A stretch of DNA of 64,000 nt from Halorarum halophilum (GTDB lineage Archaea; Halobacteriota; Halobacteria; Halobacteriales; Haloferacaceae), in assembly GCF_013401515.1 (NCBI RefSeq), contig NZ_CP058529.1, positions 2,046,001 to 2,110,000 on the forward strand, in the 5' to 3' direction. The translations under genes and the position numbers were made by a program. Below the pieces are notes generated by a model that worked only from the letters and a program-made list of their open reading frames with translations, was not told where the DNA came from and made no database searches. Positions 6,502-49,282 of this stretch are shown here, piece by piece. How positions within the stretch are numbered: position 1 is the first letter of the stretch; each line of letters starts with the position of its first letter.

Positions 6502-7431
6502 ATGGACGAACGCGAGGCGCTGTCGCTGCTCACCGCGGAACTCCCGGGCGCGGGCGACGACTGCGCGGTCGTCGGGGATCGGGTCCTCACGACGGACATG
6601 CTCCACGAGGCGACCGACTTCCCCGACGGCGTCACCCGCTACACGGCCGGCTGGCGCTCCGTCGGCGCTTCGCTCTCCGACGTCGCGGCGATGGGCGCGG
6701 AGTCCGAGGCGGCCGTCGCCGCCTACGCGTCCCCGGAACTGGACGCGGAGGAGCTCCTGGCGTACGTCCGCGGCGCGCGTGACGTCTGCGAGGCGGTCGG
6801 CGGCGAGTACGTCGGCGGCGACCTCGACCGGACCGACGAGTTCACCGTCGCGACCACCGTCCTCGGCCTCGCACCCGAACCGGTCCTGCGCTCGGGCGCG
6901 AGTCCCGGCGAGGCCGTCTGCGTGACGGGGTCGTTCGGCCGGAGCGCCGCGGCCCTCAGGCTCTTCCAGCGCGGGAACGGGGAGGGAGAGGACGGCAGAG
7001 TCGAAGACGGTGAAGGCGATGACGGCGACGGCGGGGACGTCGAACGCGGAAACGAACTGTTCCGGTTCACGCCCCGCGTCGCCGCCGGAACGGCGCTCCG
7101 ACCGTACGCGACCGCGATGATGGACTCGAGCGACGGCCTCGCGCGCTCGCTTCACCAGCTCGCGGAGGCGAGCGACTGCGGGTTCGACGTCGAGGAGGCC
7201 GCCGTTCCGGTCCACCCGGCCGTGACGGACGTCGCGGACACAGCGGCAGAACGGAGGGAGCTCTCGCTGTTCTTCGGCGAGGACTTCGAACTCGTGTTCA
7301 CGGTTCCCGAGGAGGAGTTCGACGCGGCGCGCGAGGCGTCACCGACACCCCTCGCGCGGATTGGGACGGCGACCGCGTCCCGCGTCGAGATGGACGGCGA
7401 TCCGCTCCCCGACCGCGGGTACGACCACTGA
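6502..7431 (+). CDS. thiL: Thiamine-monophosphate kinase with an acidic insert
   Basis: ThiL phosphorylates thiamine monophosphate to thiamine diphosphate, the last step of cofactor synthesis. The 309-residue protein has the AIR synthase-like fold markers: GAGDDCAVVG near residue 15, TTDMLHEATDF, SVGASLSDVAAMGA, the GGDLDRTDEFTVATTVLG stretch, and MMDSSDGLARSLHQLAE in the C-terminal half, then FFGEDFELVFTV. Between the two domains sits a low-complexity stretch of about 25 residues (near 165-190) made almost only of Gly, Asp, Glu and Arg, which is absent from typical ThiL. It is probably an exposed loop. The ATG at 6502 precedes the conserved start. Confidence 0.94.
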   Translation: MDEREALSLLTAELPGAGDDCAVVGDRVLTTDMLHEATDFPDGVTRYTAGWRSVGASLSDVAAMGAESEAAVAAYASPELDAEELLAYVRGARDVCEAVGGEYVGGDLDRTDEFTVATTVLGLAPEPVLRSGASPGEAVCVTGSFGRSAAALRLFQRGNGEGEDGRVEDGEGDDGDGGDVERGNELFRFTPRVAAGTALRPYATAMMDSSDGLARSLHQLAEASDCGFDVEEAAVPVHPAVTDVADTAAERRELSLFFGEDFELVFTVPEEEFDAAREASPTPLARIGTATASRVEMDGDPLPDRGYDH

Positions 7432-7492
7432 TTCGTCGGAAGAGCCGGTTACGGGACCGAACGTGTGATCCAGATGTCTCTACTCCGACCGT

Positions 7493-8629
7493 TCAGAGCG
7501 TCGCCACCTCGATCGGGACGAGCATGAAGCACGCCAGCCCGAGGAGGAAGGTGACGACGCCGACGACCATTCGCCTGGCATCGAGCGACGAGTCGTCGAT
7601 CGGGTTCGCCGGCCCGCGGTAGGCGATGAACGCCGAGAACAGGCCCCAGAACGCCCAGAGCCCGACGGACTCGTTGACGCCGAAGTCCCTGACGTAGTGG
7701 AGGTAGGCGGCGACGCCGAACAGGGCGACCGGCACGAGCGCCGCGACCGTCTCCTGGCGCTCGCCGACCATCGCGCGGACGATGTGGCCGCCGTCGAGCT
7801 GGCCGACCGGCAGCAGGTTCAGCACGGTGAAGAACATCCCGACCCAGGCGCCCATGATGACGGGGTGGGCCGTCTTCGTGGGGTCGTCGTAGCCCGTCGG
7901 CTGTCCGATGGCGTCGGCGATGAAATCGAGCAGTGGCGGGTTGTTGAACACGATGACGCGGCCGCCCTCCTGCATGACCTCGGGCGGAACCGAGAACGGG
8001 CCGAGCAGGAGGCCGACGACGGTGACGACGATCGTCGCCGCCAGCCCCGCGAGCGGTCCCGCGACGCCGATGTCGAACAGCGCCTTCCGGTCGGGCATCT
8101 GCCCGCGCATGCGGATGATGGCGCCCATCGTCCCGAACGGGAGCACGAACGGGATGACGTACGGGAGCGAGACGTCCACGTCGTGGTACCGACCCATCAC
8201 GTAGTGTCCGAGTTCGTGGGTCAATAGCACGCCGAGGACGGCGGCGGTGAACGGCCAGGCCTCGAGCACGACCAGGGGATCCGCCTGGATCTCGGCGAAC
8301 GACTTGTAGTACCACGCCGTCGCCCCGACGAGCAGCGTCGAGACGACGGTCGCGCAGAACAGGAACAGGTTCGTCCACGGGATCCCGTCGATCCCCGTCG
8401 AGTACGGGCGGGCGACGACGACGTCGAGGCCGCGCTCCGTCTGGACCACCTGCACCTCGTAGCCCTGCTCGCGGAACGCGGGCCAGATCCGCTCCACCAG
8501 CGCGTCCTCCCCCACCTCGCTGATACCGTAGTAGAGCATGCGCTCGCCGTCGGTCCGGACCTCGGACAGGTGGAAGACGGCGTCGAGTTCCGGGGGGCGG
8601 GGGACGTCACGCTGTGCCGCGTCGCTCAT
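7493..8629 (-). CDS. Site-2 protease family (M50) intramembrane metalloprotease
   Basis: This 378-residue membrane zinc protease cleaves substrates within the bilayer. A soluble N-terminal part of about 110 residues (MSDAAQRDVPRPPELDAVFHL...) is followed by helices. The zinc motif HELGH lies in LLTHELGHYVMGRY and the second metal-binding motif in NLLPVGQLDGGH, both hallmarks of M50. The N-terminal extension resembles the FtsX-free archaeal and cyanobacterial EGY1-like group. The ATG at 8629 is used because the extension upstream (GASGGLILCRVKTPP) is unlike the family. The gene converges on thiL and its start region faces the small gene at 8804. Its substrate is unknown; such proteases often act on anti-sigma-like or signalling membrane proteins. 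Confidence 0.9.
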   Translation of the reverse strand: MSDAAQRDVPRPPELDAVFHLSEVRTDGERMLYYGISEVGEDALVERIWPAFREQGYEVQVVQTERGLDVVVARPYSTGIDGIPWTNLFLFCATVVSTLLVGATAWYYKSFAEIQADPLVVLEAWPFTAAVLGVLLTHELGHYVMGRYHDVDVSLPYVIPFVLPFGTMGAIIRMRGQMPDRKALFDIGVAGPLAGLAATIVVTVVGLLLGPFSVPPEVMQEGGRVIVFNNPPLLDFIADAIGQPTGYDDPTKTAHPVIMGAWVGMFFTVLNLLPVGQLDGGHIVRAMVGERQETVAALVPVALFGVAAYLHYVRDFGVNESVGLWAFWGLFSAFIAYRGPANPIDDSSLDARRMVVGVVTFLLGLACFMLVPIEVATL

Positions 8630-45348: not shown

Positions 45349-46797
45349 GTGACCGACTTCGACCTCGTCGTGCTCGGCGGAGGAACCGGCAATCTCGTCG
45401 CGGCCGAGGCCGTCGAGGCGGGACTCGACGTCGCGCTCGTCGAACGGGGCCGCCTCGGCGGAACCTGCCTCAACCGGGGCTGCAACCCCTCGAAGAAGCT
45501 CATCCACCGGGCGAACGTCGCCGAGACGGTCAGGGAGGCCGAGGCGGTCGGCGTCGACGCCACGCTGAACGACGTCGCCTTCCGCGAGATCGTCGACCAC
45601 GTGACGGACGTCATCACTGAGGAGGCGGAGTCGAAGGCCGAGGAGGCGCGCGAGACCGACGGCCTGACGTTCTACCAAGCGACGGGACGGTTCGTGGACG
45701 AGCGGACCGTCGAGGTCGACGCGGGCGGTTGCAGCGGCGATACGGGCGGAGATGGCGAGGACGGCGATGGGGGCGATGGGGGCGATGACACCGAGCGGAT
45801 CACCGGCGACCGGATCGTGCTCGCCGGCGGGTCCCGGCCTCGGGTTCCCGACTCCATCGCCGGCACGGACGAGGTCGACTTCCTGACGAGCGACGAGGCG
45901 CTCGGGCTCCGAGAGCGCCCCGACAGGCTCGTCATCGTCGGCGGCGGCTACATCGCCGTCGAGTTGGCCCACTTCTTCGGGCAGATGGGGACCGAGGTGG
46001 TCGTCGTCGGCCACGGCGACGTGCTGGTCGACCGCGAGGACCGCGACATCGCCGAGCGCGTGACCGAAGTCTACGAACAGGACCACGAACTCCACCTCGG
46101 CTTCGAGGTCACGGCGCTCGCCGAAGCGGCCGGCGAGACGGTCGTCACCGCCGAATCGGAGGACGGGGAGGAGATTCGGGTCCGGGGCGACGAGGCGCTC
46201 CTCGCCGTCGGCCGCCGGCCGAACTCGGACACCTGGAACGTCGATGCAGCGGGGATCGAGACCGACGAGAAGGGGTTCGTGGAGACGAACGAGTACCTCG
46301 AAACGTCGGTCGACGGCGTGTGGGCCATCGGCGACATAGCCGGCAACTACATGTTCAAACACTCGGGCGACAAGGAGGCCGAGTGCGTCGTCGAGAACGC
46401 GGTTCGCGGGAATCGGACGGCCGTCGAGTACCCGGGGATGGCCCACGCCGTCTTCGGGTCGCCCCAGGTCGGGAGCCTCGGGAGGACCGAGTCGGAACTC
46501 GACGACGGGACCGACTACGAGGTCGGCACCTTCGCGTACGACCGGACCGCGCTCGGGGAGGCGATGGCGACCGACGGCGGGTTCGCCAAGGCGATCATCG
46601 GGCCGGACGACGAGGTGCTCGGCTTCCACGTCGTCGGCCCCCACGCGTCGATGCTCGTCCACGAGGTGAGCACGGCCGTGGCGGTCGGGGGCCGGGCGAG
46701 GGACATCGCCGAGACCATCCACGTCCACCCGGCGCTCTCGGAGGTCGTTCAGGGCGCGTTCCGCGACGTCCACGACGTCGCCGCGTCGGGGCTTTGA
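45349..46797 (+). CDS. Flavin-dependent pyridine nucleotide-disulfide oxidoreductase with an acidic-glycine insert
   Basis: This 482-residue class I enzyme starts at GTG 45349. It has the FAD motif VLGGGTGNLVAAEAVE, the redox pair in GGTCLNRGCNPSKK, the NAD(P) motif IVGGGYIAVELAHFFGQMG near 200, and the dimer-interface HPALSEVVQGAF near the C-terminus that provides the catalytic His. It resembles lipoamide, glutathione or mercuric reductases. In haloarchaea a bis-gamma-glutamylcystine reductase of this kind was once annotated as mercuric reductase, a possible identity. A low-complexity insert of about 22 residues (Gly, Asp and Cys, near 125-148) is unusual. It follows the DsrE gene closely. 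Confidence 0.87.
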   Translation: MTDFDLVVLGGGTGNLVAAEAVEAGLDVALVERGRLGGTCLNRGCNPSKKLIHRANVAETVREAEAVGVDATLNDVAFREIVDHVTDVITEEAESKAEEARETDGLTFYQATGRFVDERTVEVDAGGCSGDTGGDGEDGDGGDGGDDTERITGDRIVLAGGSRPRVPDSIAGTDEVDFLTSDEALGLRERPDRLVIVGGGYIAVELAHFFGQMGTEVVVVGHGDVLVDREDRDIAERVTEVYEQDHELHLGFEVTALAEAAGETVVTAESEDGEEIRVRGDEALLAVGRRPNSDTWNVDAAGIETDEKGFVETNEYLETSVDGVWAIGDIAGNYMFKHSGDKEAECVVENAVRGNRTAVEYPGMAHAVFGSPQVGSLGRTESELDDGTDYEVGTFAYDRTALGEAMATDGGFAKAIIGPDDEVLGFHVVGPHASMLVHEVSTAVAVGGRARDIAETIHVHPALSEVVQGAFRDVHDVAASGL

Positions 46798-46859
46798 ACC
46801 GGCGCGTCTCGCCGTCGTATCGTAAACGCTTATGCGGGCACGCCGGCAAGACCGGGCGA

Positions 46860-46933
46860 GGGCTGGTAGCTCAGTTAGGGAGAGCGTCCGGCTTTTAACC
46901 GGACGGTCGGGGGTTCGAATCCCTCCCAGCCCG
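46860..46933 (+). tRNA. tRNA-Lys (anticodon TTT)
   Basis: A complete cloverleaf: acceptor GGGCTGG/CCAGCCC, D arm with AGCTCAGTTAGGGAGAGC, anticodon stem TCCGG/CCGGA with loop CTTTTAA (anticodon TTT), and T arm GGGGGTTCGAATCCC. There is no intron. Its 3' end, from GGTTCGAATCCC onward, is repeated twice downstream at 122-bp steps. Confidence 0.95.
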
Positions 46934-47175
46934 CTGTTCTCGCGAACGAAGTGAGCGTGAACAGCGATAGCTGGGGGGATTCGAAGCAGGGAGCACGCAG
47001 CGCCGAGCGCGAGCGAGGCGACCGTGCGACCGTGGTTCGAATCCCTCCCAGCCCGCTGTTCTCGCGAACGAAGTGAGCGTGAACAGCGATAGCTGGGGGG
47101 ATTCGAAGCAGGGAGCACGCAGCGCCGAGCGCGAGCGAGGCGACCGTGCGACCGTGGTTCGAATCCCTCCCAGCC
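46912..47175 (+). repeat. Tandem 122-bp repeats carrying the tRNA-Lys 3' end
   Basis: Two consecutive units of 122 bp (46912-47033 and 47034-47155) are identical by eye, followed by 20 bases of a third. Each begins with the tRNA T-arm end GGTTCGAATCCC and acceptor end, runs through a hairpin (CTGTTCTCGC ... GCGTGAACAG), and ends CGTGCGACCGTG. The second and third copies are tRNA 3' halves only. They look like duplication by recombination at the tRNA end or remnants of site-specific integrations. They also create false reading frames. Confidence 0.85.
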
Positions 47176-47265
47176 TGCGATTTCGGTTCGCGTGCTGCCC
47201 GTACGGACGCTGGCGGTAGGTTGGTCAGCGCGGTCAGTCCGTTCGTGAAGTGGCAGACCACTACT

Positions 47266-47453
47266 CCCAGGCGTCATGGGGCCACGTCCTCCCCAGCCGA
47301 TTCGCTCGGTCGGCTCCCTTCGGTCCCCTCCCTCGCTCATCTTACCTCGGAGCAAGCTCCTCGGAACTCACGTTCGCTACGCTCACGTGAGCCTGGTGCG
47401 CGTGTGCTCGCGCCCAGAGGCGCTCGCGTCACACGCCCCAACCGCAAGCTACC
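47266..47453. repeat. Dispersed intergenic repeat, copy D
   Basis: This copy in the 340-bp spacer after the tandem repeats has the core GTCCTCCCCAGCCGATTCGC near 47285. It continues with short inverted units (GAACTCACGTTCGC and its neighbours near 47359) and ends near CGCCCCAACCGCAAG. It shares the core and end with copies A to C. No gene is present in the rest of the spacer up to 47515. Confidence 0.75.
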
Positions 47454-47515
47454 GTACATGCAAAACGACGAAAAACACCGACGAGCAACCGGCCCTCCTC
47501 GATGTTGCCCCCGGT

Positions 47516-49282
47516 TCACCGGGCAAGTTCGTCGCGAAGGAACGCCACCGCCTCGTCGACGAACTCCGGCTCGCCGCCGCCGCGCGGCAGCGGGAGTTCG
47601 ATCCGGCCGCCGTCCGTGTGGAGCACGATCGCGTCCGCACGGCGGCCGACACCCGCGACGTTGGAGTACGGAACCGTCCACTCGCCGCCGTCGGCGCCGT
47701 CGGCGACGACCCGGACCGACTCGTCCGTGAACAGCGCCGCCGCGTCGCCACGGAGCAGGACGGCCCCGTCGTCCCGGAGCCCGGCACTCCGGCGGAGCCG
47801 AACGAGGTGGTGGGGCTGCTCGTACGCCCCGAGGACGGCGGTCGCGTCGGGGAGCCACCGGGCCTCGCCGCGGAGGCGGGCCGGCGTGACAGAGTCGCCC
47901 GCCGCCCCCGCCGCGAGGTCGGCCGCCCGGTCGAGGTCCGCCACGTCGTCCGTCTCGGCGGTGGCAATAGCGGTATCGGCATCCTCCGTACCCCTGGCGG
48001 CGTCCCCCGAACCCCCCGTGGCGTCCCCGGTCGCCTCGATCGCCCCGACCGCTTCGGCCGCCTCCATCGCGTCGATCCCGTCGGCGCCCTCGGCAGGCCG
48101 GTCGTGTTCCGCTTGCGCGTCGCCGTTCCACTCCGTGAGCGGTTCGGTCGCTACCTCCTCCCGGTTCCCGCCGTTCCCGGTGGGGTCGGCGTCGACGACG
48201 CCCTCGGCGCCGTCGGTCACCTCCCCCTCGGCGGTCCAGCGGTCGGCGTCGCCGGGCGCCGACGCGGACGTCCCCGGCGGACGGAAGTGGAGTTCGAACA
48301 CCGTCCCCTCGGGCTCGTTCGCCCGCACGTCGACGGAGCCGCCGTACATCTCCATCAGCCGATCGACGAAGAAGAGGCTCAGGCCCTCGCCGTGGTCGAC
48401 CTGCGTCCGCTCGTCGCGACCGAGCACCCGGTCGTGGCGCCGGGGCTCGATGCCGGGGCCGTTGTCGGCGATGGAGAGGGTCACCCGGTCGGGCCCCTCC
48501 TCGACGCCGATCTCGATCCGCGGGACCTCCTTATCGTTGTGCTCGACCGCGTTCTCCACGACCGCACGGAGCGCCGGCGCGAGCATGTCGTCGGCCACGA
48601 CGTCGACCGAGTCCGCGGTCCCGGAGACGGAGACGGCGACCTGCTGGGTCGGGGCGTCCTCCAGCGCGTCGCCGACCGCGGTCGCGAGGTCGACCGGCTC
48701 CAGCGAGTACGAGTCGCCGCCGGTGAGGATGCCGCCGAACCGGCGCGTCGTCCGCGCCCGGCCGAGCATGTCCTCCACGCGCGTCGCGGCGGTGTCGAGC
48801 GAGGCCGTCAGTTCTGGGTCGGAGACCGCGTCAGCGACGCGCTCGACGTGTCCAAGCACCACGTTGGCGTCGTTCCGGAGGTTGTGCCTGAGCACCCGGT
48901 TGAGGATCCGGAGCGACTCCTCGTAGCGCCGGTGGCTCGTCATGTCGGTGAACACCGCGACGTACCCCCGCGTCTCCCCGTCGAGGACGAGCGGCGTCGC
49001 GGAGCCGCGGCCGTAGACGAGCTGGCCGTCCTTCGTCGTCGTCTCGAAGTTCCCGACCCACGACTCCCCCTTCGAGAGCGCGTCGATGACGTCCTCGTAC
49101 ACCGAGTCGTCGTCGATGAGCATGAGGGGGGTCGAACCGAGCAGTTCCTCGCGCTCGTAGCCCGTCACGTCGAGCAGGGCGTCGTTCGCGTCGGTGATGA
49201 TGAACTCCGTGTCCGCGATGAGGGTGGGGCTCGCCGTTTCGTGGAAGGCGCGACGGTGGAGCTCCGATGTACCCTGTGGCAT
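47516..49282 (-). CDS. PAS-domain histidine kinase with a C-terminal PH-like module
   Basis: This 588-residue protein starts MPQGTSELHRRAFHETASPT. It has one PAS domain (10-115) and then a histidine kinase with the HNLRND-type phospho-acceptor His133 in NRVLRHNLRNDANVVLGHVE. The ATPase part has an N box (ENAVEHND, 245-252) and a G1 box DNGPG (275-279). Unusually, a low-complexity acidic linker of about 130 residues (340-470) is followed by a 110-residue C-terminal module that looks beta-rich (GAVLLRGDAAALFTDESVRVV ... VGRRADAIVLHTDGGRIELPL), a PH-like or immunoglobulin-like fold. No membrane helices are present. No response regulator is adjacent. Confidence 0.87.
   Translation of the reverse strand: MPQGTSELHRRAFHETASPTLIADTEFIITDANDALLDVTGYEREELLGSTPLMLIDDDSVYEDVIDALSKGESWVGNFETTTKDGQLVYGRGSATPLVLDGETRGYVAVFTDMTSHRRYEESLRILNRVLRHNLRNDANVVLGHVERVADAVSDPELTASLDTAATRVEDMLGRARTTRRFGGILTGGDSYSLEPVDLATAVGDALEDAPTQQVAVSVSGTADSVDVVADDMLAPALRAVVENAVEHNDKEVPRIEIGVEEGPDRVTLSIADNGPGIEPRRHDRVLGRDERTQVDHGEGLSLFFVDRLMEMYGGSVDVRANEPEGTVFELHFRPPGTSASAPGDADRWTAEGEVTDGAEGVVDADPTGNGGNREEVATEPLTEWNGDAQAEHDRPAEGADGIDAMEAAEAVGAIEATGDATGGSGDAARGTEDADTAIATAETDDVADLDRAADLAAGAAGDSVTPARLRGEARWLPDATAVLGAYEQPHHLVRLRRSAGLRDDGAVLLRGDAAALFTDESVRVVADGADGGEWTVPYSNVAGVGRRADAIVLHTDGGRIELPLPRGGGEPEFVDEAVAFLRDELAR

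Follow-up and report, generated by a model that had tools for sequence, protein, structure and literature searches.

A tandem array behind a tRNA-Lys gene of Halorarum halophilum may belong to a family of hairpin units tailored to haloarchaeal tRNA genes

The window, a stretch of 64,000 nucleotides from contig NZ_CP058529.1 of Halorarum halophilum (positions 2,046,001 to 2,110,000; genome of 4.28 Mb in four contigs), contains a tRNA-Lys(UUU) gene that is followed directly by a short tandem array. The gene spans 46860–46933 according to Rfam and 46860–46934 according to ARAGORN, and its last 22 nucleotides recur twice downstream. The features of the array, all on the forward strand, are as follows:

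46860–46933 (+): tRNA-Lys(UUU), host of the array; the repeated tail is 46912–46933 (tRNA positions 52–73)
46934–47055 (+): unit 1, 122 bp; begins with the first base past the tRNA and closes with the first tail copy
46932–46966 (+): H1, the first hairpin; its stem opens with the last CG of the tRNA, with tandem G.A pairs and a GAA loop (by eye)
46970–46987 (+): T', an inverted copy of the tRNA-Lys T-arm/acceptor tail, found as inverted-repeat pairs and overlapping the first base of the core
46987–47035 (+): core of unit 1, consisting of CAGGGAG, a variable hairpin and CGACCGTGG (core-pattern match)
47034–47055 (+): first direct tail copy, 22/22 positions identical to the tRNA tail
47056–47177 (+): unit 2, an exact repeat as far as 47175
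47109–47157 (+): core of unit 2 (core-pattern match)
47156–47177 (+): second direct tail copy, 21/22 positions identical to the tRNA tail

TRF reported a period of 122 with 2.2 copies and 100% matches over 46912–47175, and a repeat search found 46912–47033 to be identical to 47034–47155, with a third copy of 23 nt at 47156–47178 (96%). An earlier note on this DNA had described a tandem repeat of the tRNA-Lys 3' end with a 122-bp step and two complete, identical units, and both the coordinates and the step proved exact. Its description of a trailer of about 100 bp with one strong hairpin needs amending, as the trailer between the tail copies is indeed 100 bp long, identical in both units and strongly folded, but contains two hairpins. 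The tail repeat and the trailer had been seen correctly, while the inverted arm, the conserved core and the host-specific arms were overlooked. The 122-nt unit folds as DNA 6.0 SD below dinucleotide shuffles, with T' pairing with the direct tail copy, and the tRNA-Lys together with a unit folds as RNA 6.8 SD below shuffles. In an Rfam scan of 46000–48000 the tRNA alone passed the gathering score, and a known RNA family was rejected for the unit. Further downstream, at 47270–47440, lies a GC-rich segment whose reverse complement resembles, by eye, the CTGGGGAGG repeat found behind tRNA-Leu units of a Halorubrum-like genus.

Judged from the sequence, the grammar of the units is direct tRNA tail, H1, inverted tail (T'), CAGGGAG-hairpin-CGACCGTGG and direct tail: a spacer hairpin is followed by an inverted copy of the tRNA T-arm/acceptor, CAGGGAG, a variable hairpin, CGACCGTGG and a direct copy of tRNA positions 52–73. 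The same kind of trailer, which the earlier note had proposed to look for after other tRNA genes, is present there. In nine of the 44 chromosomal tRNAs of the window genome, the tail recurs in direct orientation within the next 450 nt with 16 or more of 22 positions matching, and in eight with 20 or more. A reversed-tail control gave 0/44 at 16/22, and random placement in the window gave 3/880 at 16/22 and 0/880 at 17/22; because both controls are nearly empty, the tail copies in this genome are not chance matches. A foreign-tail control (165 matches in 1892) was set aside as uninformative, since tRNA tails resemble one another and the loci contain other tails, and was replaced by the shuffle, reversed-tail and random-placement tests. 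Units occur, for example, behind Arg(CCG) and Lys(CTT), where the arm copies match each gene, and behind Val(TAC), where T' and the core are present and the tail copy has decayed. Contig C4 of this genome (148.9 kb, tRNA-rich) gave no match to the core pattern, and no unit was seen by eye in the 70 nt behind 31 tRNAs; within C4:45000–60500 (L038), 31 tRNA genes lie in about 13 kb, and the segment looks like a tRNA-rich halovirus or plasmid.

To compare arms and cores across genomes, we collected units that have a CAGGGAG-type core and lie no more than 450 nt from a tRNA called by ARAGORN, which yielded 110 units, 106 of them distinct; other core types, seen by eye at tRNA-Lys loci, lie outside this count. 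Units are about 86–170 bp long across loci, and their host tRNAs represent 27 ARAGORN anticodon types. On the left of the copied block, identity stops at G52 in 97 of the 106 units, which had been selected for GG at that place; on the right, the matching run is most often 22–24 nt, i.e., it reaches the gene end (38 units). Tail copies match their own tRNA at 17.8 of 20 positions, compared with 13.5 for tRNAs of other amino acids, and in 79 of the 106 no other tRNA comes as close to the 11 distal nt as the own one. The inverted arm behaves likewise: T' scores 11.2 against its own tRNA and 8.8 against others, the own tRNA beats the mean for other amino acids in 103/106 units, and none of 200 shuffles was as good as the observed T' sum. 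tRNA base 57 and its partner in T' agree in 96 of the 106 (A-T in 64, G-C in 32, otherwise in 10).

The cores, by comparison, are shared between tRNAs. Five exact cores are each found with tRNAs for at least two amino acids, and among 40 long-core pairs that are nearly identical, 18 bring together different amino acids, although these pairs were drawn from 48 units that recur among them and are not independent. In all 36 comparisons of near-identical-core pairs the tail matched its own tRNA, and since the tail thus follows its tRNA despite nearly the same core, cores appear to travel or to be shared while the arms are reset. CAGGGAG is constant in 101/106 units and CGACCGTGG in 80/106, a constancy that is partly by construction because CAGGGAG was in the fetching pattern and only near variants were accepted.

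We also scanned the GTDB species genomes for GGATTYGAAYCAGGGAG, a pattern that includes part of T' and CAGGGAG and hence yields selected loci, and obtained at least 119 loci. Among the 122 matches listed, 81 (79 loci) follow a tRNA of the same strand at a distance of 32–290 nt; all 81 are from Halobacteria, with at least 24 genera named and 14 matches that have no genus. Seven more listed matches in Halobacteria are second units, attachment-like ends or incomplete loci, and 34 of the 122 are in bacteria; every named locus with the unit comes from Halobacteria. A core pattern free of arm letters matched 94 times in 40 genomes of the family, against three matches for the reversed pattern. When 30 loci from the core scan were opened, 23 proved to lie behind a complete tRNA no more than 285 nt upstream, two (L221 and L236) had the unit anatomy with no complete tRNA found, and five were chance matches lacking TTC past the core. 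In a sample of 148 genomes from the phylum, the core was present in 14 of 24 Halobacteriales and in none of the 124 others.

Unit number and arrangement vary between related species. Applying the 16/22 rule to 29 tRNA-Lys loci of relatives, we counted no unit in eight, one in 16 and two in five; since these loci are the best matches to a unit-containing query and therefore biased towards units, 21 of 29 with units is not a frequency. Two of the eight without a copy by this rule (L042 and L060) contain a decayed unit by eye, and L056 carries an exact tandem of a different unit. Two units stand in the order A-B at L041 and B-A at L044, with similarities of 0.91 and 0.88 between matching units and 0.39 and 0.60 between non-matching ones; the B unit of L041 has no tail copy. 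This opposite order would also be explicable by an ancestor with more units that suffered different losses. Arrays of four units were found at L210 (units of 86–87 bp) and at L235 (diverged units).

The tRNA-Leu(CAA) locus of one genus offers a closer view, as its 52 species comprise 23 occupied, 17 empty, six chimeric, three variant and three unread sites. At empty sites the tRNA is directly joined to what elsewhere comes after the tail copy (three of the 17, G204, G214 and G227, have N nearby, and G227 is uncertain), and at chimeric sites the junction falls at the inverted arm, with H1 taken from the first unit and what follows from the second. Each of these two states looks like the loss of a single unit, with the crossover at a different point. 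When the states of 47 species are placed on a one-gene tree of 50, at least 17 changes are needed, or 11 if sites are scored as occupied versus not; the well-supported branches alone force five occupied-versus-not changes, 24 of the 47 inner branches of this quick single-gene tree being open. G209 (no marker match) and G225 (partial marker) are absent from the tree, G229 has a partial marker, and three rows have no state. Exchange between species could mimic state changes on such a tree. The occurrence of occupied, exactly empty and chimeric states, together with arrays of up to four units, supports the earlier suggestions that duplication by recombination took place at the tRNA 3' end and that the repeats supply ready crossover points. 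In four Halorubrum-like tRNA-Leu(CAA) loci (L248, L253, L258 and L265), a second tRNA-Leu-like copy was seen downstream by eye; its 5' part is altered, and an insert rich in hairpins sits in its variable arm. A second unit-like tRNA-Leu(CAA) trailer, with a short tail copy, is alike by eye in the window genome (G000, C1:574012) and in the Halorubrum-like genus.

C(GNA)G loops and PyGAPu tandems form very stable DNA hairpins. In the inner stems of our units we counted 3 G.T against 8 A.C mismatches and 43 tandem GA, and, leaving aside one conserved T.G pair, 40 G.T and 39 A.C mismatches in the helix of T' and tail, in a strand test that rests on a crude stem walk. Among the commonest inner loops were GNA triloops (25) and TTC, TCT, TTT and TCC (16), which are purine triloops on the other strand. 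Because the inner stems lack the excess of G.U expected of RNA, we lean towards structure at the DNA level, so that the units would be mainly DNA hairpins. The T.G pair that adjoins the core, kept in 78 of the 106 units, looks like the result of selection on one strand, and together with the sharp 3' edge at the tRNA end it would speak for a role as RNA.

Mobile DNA of prokaryotes often inserts at the 3' ends of tRNA genes. The closest known system to the haloarchaeal units is the 178-bp repeat of E. coli tyrT (rtT RNA), which we take to be Rfam RF00391 (rttR, tpr); Bosl and Kersten, in 1991 and 1994, are reportedly named in connection with the tyrV/rtT repeats. At tyrV of E. coli K-12, three 178-bp units each end in a tRNA-Tyr tail, and an ncRNA, RttR (171 nt), and an ORF, tpr, are annotated. 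Two traits of this type recur in the haloarchaeal units, namely tandem units behind a tRNA that end in its tail (19/22 positions in three copies in E. coli) and an inverted tail arm within the unit (GGGGAAGGAT, 10 nt, a match that 17 of 10,000 base shuffles reach). Past the arm, E. coli units 1 and 3 have CGACCAAGGTTCGA, which resembles the haloarchaeal right core CGACCNNGGTTC by eye and post hoc; unit 2 has CGACTAAGGTTCGG at this place. The E. coli repeats differ in occupying one locus in the one genome examined, in a longer unit, in an insert that splits the tail copy (by eye) and in the annotated ncRNA and small ORF, whereas the haloarchaeal family has CAGGGAG and 27 anticodon types.

Other repeats are further removed. 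Integron attC cassette arrays consist of tandem hairpin-forming units that undergo exact excision and reordering; the haloarchaeal units resemble them in this outline only and are without cassette genes. Repeats of the REP/REPIN and MITE types are short, gene-less, hairpin-forming and intergenic, as our units are, and have ends of fixed sequence, whereas the arms of a haloarchaeal unit copy whichever tRNA hosts it. Assignment to MITEs was rejected, as the arms follow the host tRNA and fixed, target-independent terminal inverted repeats were not found. Haloarchaeal proviruses and other elements integrated into tRNA genes create a second copy of the tRNA 3' end, 22 or 43 nt long, and repeat-bounded deletions in haloarchaea proceed by loss between direct repeats; as far as the excerpted account goes, such elements are kilobases long and carry an integrase (PMC3119063), unlike units of the present size. 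In Haloferax gibbonsii LR2-5, partial tRNAs that directly adjoin a full tRNA were termed remnants, and the excerpted account names no inverted arm, core, array or family (PMC7921747). Searches of open-licence PMC full text, among them one for literal motifs, turned up no account of the unit or of either its inverted arm or its core.

We propose, with a probability of roughly 0.5, that the array consists of two tRNA-tailored hairpin cassettes of a Halobacteria DNA repeat family that resides behind tRNA genes and is shaped by recombination and arm rewriting, its structures being kept mainly as DNA hairpins. At the level of sequence comparison, we could demonstrate that units are tailored to the tRNA, that cores are shared, that units are exactly present or absent, and that exchange occurs. 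Copy number would shift through slipped-strand or unequal recombination between the tail repeats, possibly assisted by the hairpins. A core could move to another tRNA by template switching via the near-palindromic T-arm that tRNAs have in common, and fold-back (quasipalindrome) copying may rewrite both arms to fit the new tRNA. Because the structures seem to be kept mainly as DNA hairpins, the family could largely be selfish or neutral DNA in a safe site. An enzyme that recognizes CAGGGAG/CGACCG is likely, since both motifs vary so little. It counts against the proposal that the constancy of CAGGGAG and CGACCGTGG across the class exceeds what passive copying would predict, a hint of an enzyme or of a function as RNA. 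A bolder reading is that of class-wide, perhaps cross-domain mobile DNA, in which arm-rewriting cassettes are moved by a putative CAGGGAG-hairpin-CGACCG enzyme and E. coli rtT is either a relative or convergent; we regard this as speculative and rather less than probable.

The units could alternatively be mini integrative elements, gene-less and with the tail copy and T' serving as core sites for tRNA-targeting tyrosine recombinases that act in trans, perhaps on a folded strand as in integron attC. The sharp-edged block from tRNA position 52 to the gene end would suit such elements, as would the exact empty sites, the tandem arrays and the differing unit order; the units do combine a direct repeat of the tRNA 3' end with an exact empty site, the latter known from the tRNA-Leu(CAA) locus only. 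At one locus, L161, a tyrosine recombinase gene (PF00589, E 1.4e-7) adjoins a tRNA tail fragment. We nevertheless consider this origin unlikely, for one integrase normally has one core sequence, whereas here the arms differ at 27 anticodon types and the core of the unit is constant, and exact deletion between direct repeats that flank a hairpin needs no integrase. No integrase gene lies in the unit, 122 bp being too short and longer mechanical frames merely crossing it. At E 1e-5, BLAST with a 145-base query of the window unit matched none of 72,556 plasmid and none of 50,697 phage records, a search that distant units could escape, and none of 20 viral-contig matches was a unit by eye. The end of the L161 element is, moreover, unlike the unit. 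Of the integration site suggested by the earlier note, tail repeats with an exact empty site therefore remain, but an integrase-made scar or an array of attachment sites is not supported for a unit so short, unmatched in the plasmid and phage records searched and unlike the end of that element. At L161 the recombinase gene (6730–7749, minus strand) lies upstream of the tRNA tail fragment, and behind the fragment comes a unit; the element with the integrase ends at the fragment and leaves the unit outside, and we rejected the idea that a unit is the end of a real integrated element. L172 has a similar but weaker layout, in which a short ORF matches integrase N-terminal domains only, and both loci look as if an integrated element, of which this would be the right end, had separated a tRNA from its unit.

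A functional trailer RNA is similarly doubtful. The unit would be co-transcribed with the tRNA, and the acceptor-like helix of T' and the tail copy would act as a second RNase Z site, releasing a small RNA whose 3' end is tRNA-like, as with rtT RNA in E. coli. The tyrV units, with their tails, inverted arms and annotated RttR, argue for this, as do the RNA fold (z −6.8), the conserved T.G pair and a best fold in which the 5' acceptor strand of the tRNA pairs with the tail copy and its own 3' strand with T'; the unit-like tRNA-Leu(CAA) trailer common to the window genome and the Halorubrum-like genus would also suit a function. These points have to be set against inner stems without an excess of G.U over A.C, a patchy presence between related species, and cores that differ, by eye, at the tRNA-Lys gene of relatives. 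If the array were no more than a local tandem duplication of the tRNA trailer, or an error of assembly, the exactness of the two window copies would be accounted for, yet this is very improbable in view of the same grammar, with arms matching each tRNA, in at least 24 named haloarchaeal genera and in metagenome genomes. An assembly artefact, which the earlier note had named as the finding that would count against it, is an unlikely source of the structure because units and arrays are present in many other genomes, while the copy number given here is that of the assembly.

If the array does belong to a family of tRNA-tailored DNA hairpins, a tiny repeat family would be using the tRNA 3' segment, tailoring itself to each tRNA and varying in copy number between related species, and its natural occupied, empty and chimeric sites would allow gain, loss and arm rewriting to be measured. 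Such a family may explain partial tRNAs that lie beside intact ones in haloarchaea, and would place a shared grammar under the long-known tyrT repeats of E. coli. In both L066 and the E. coli locus L353, a further insert interrupts the tail copy by eye.
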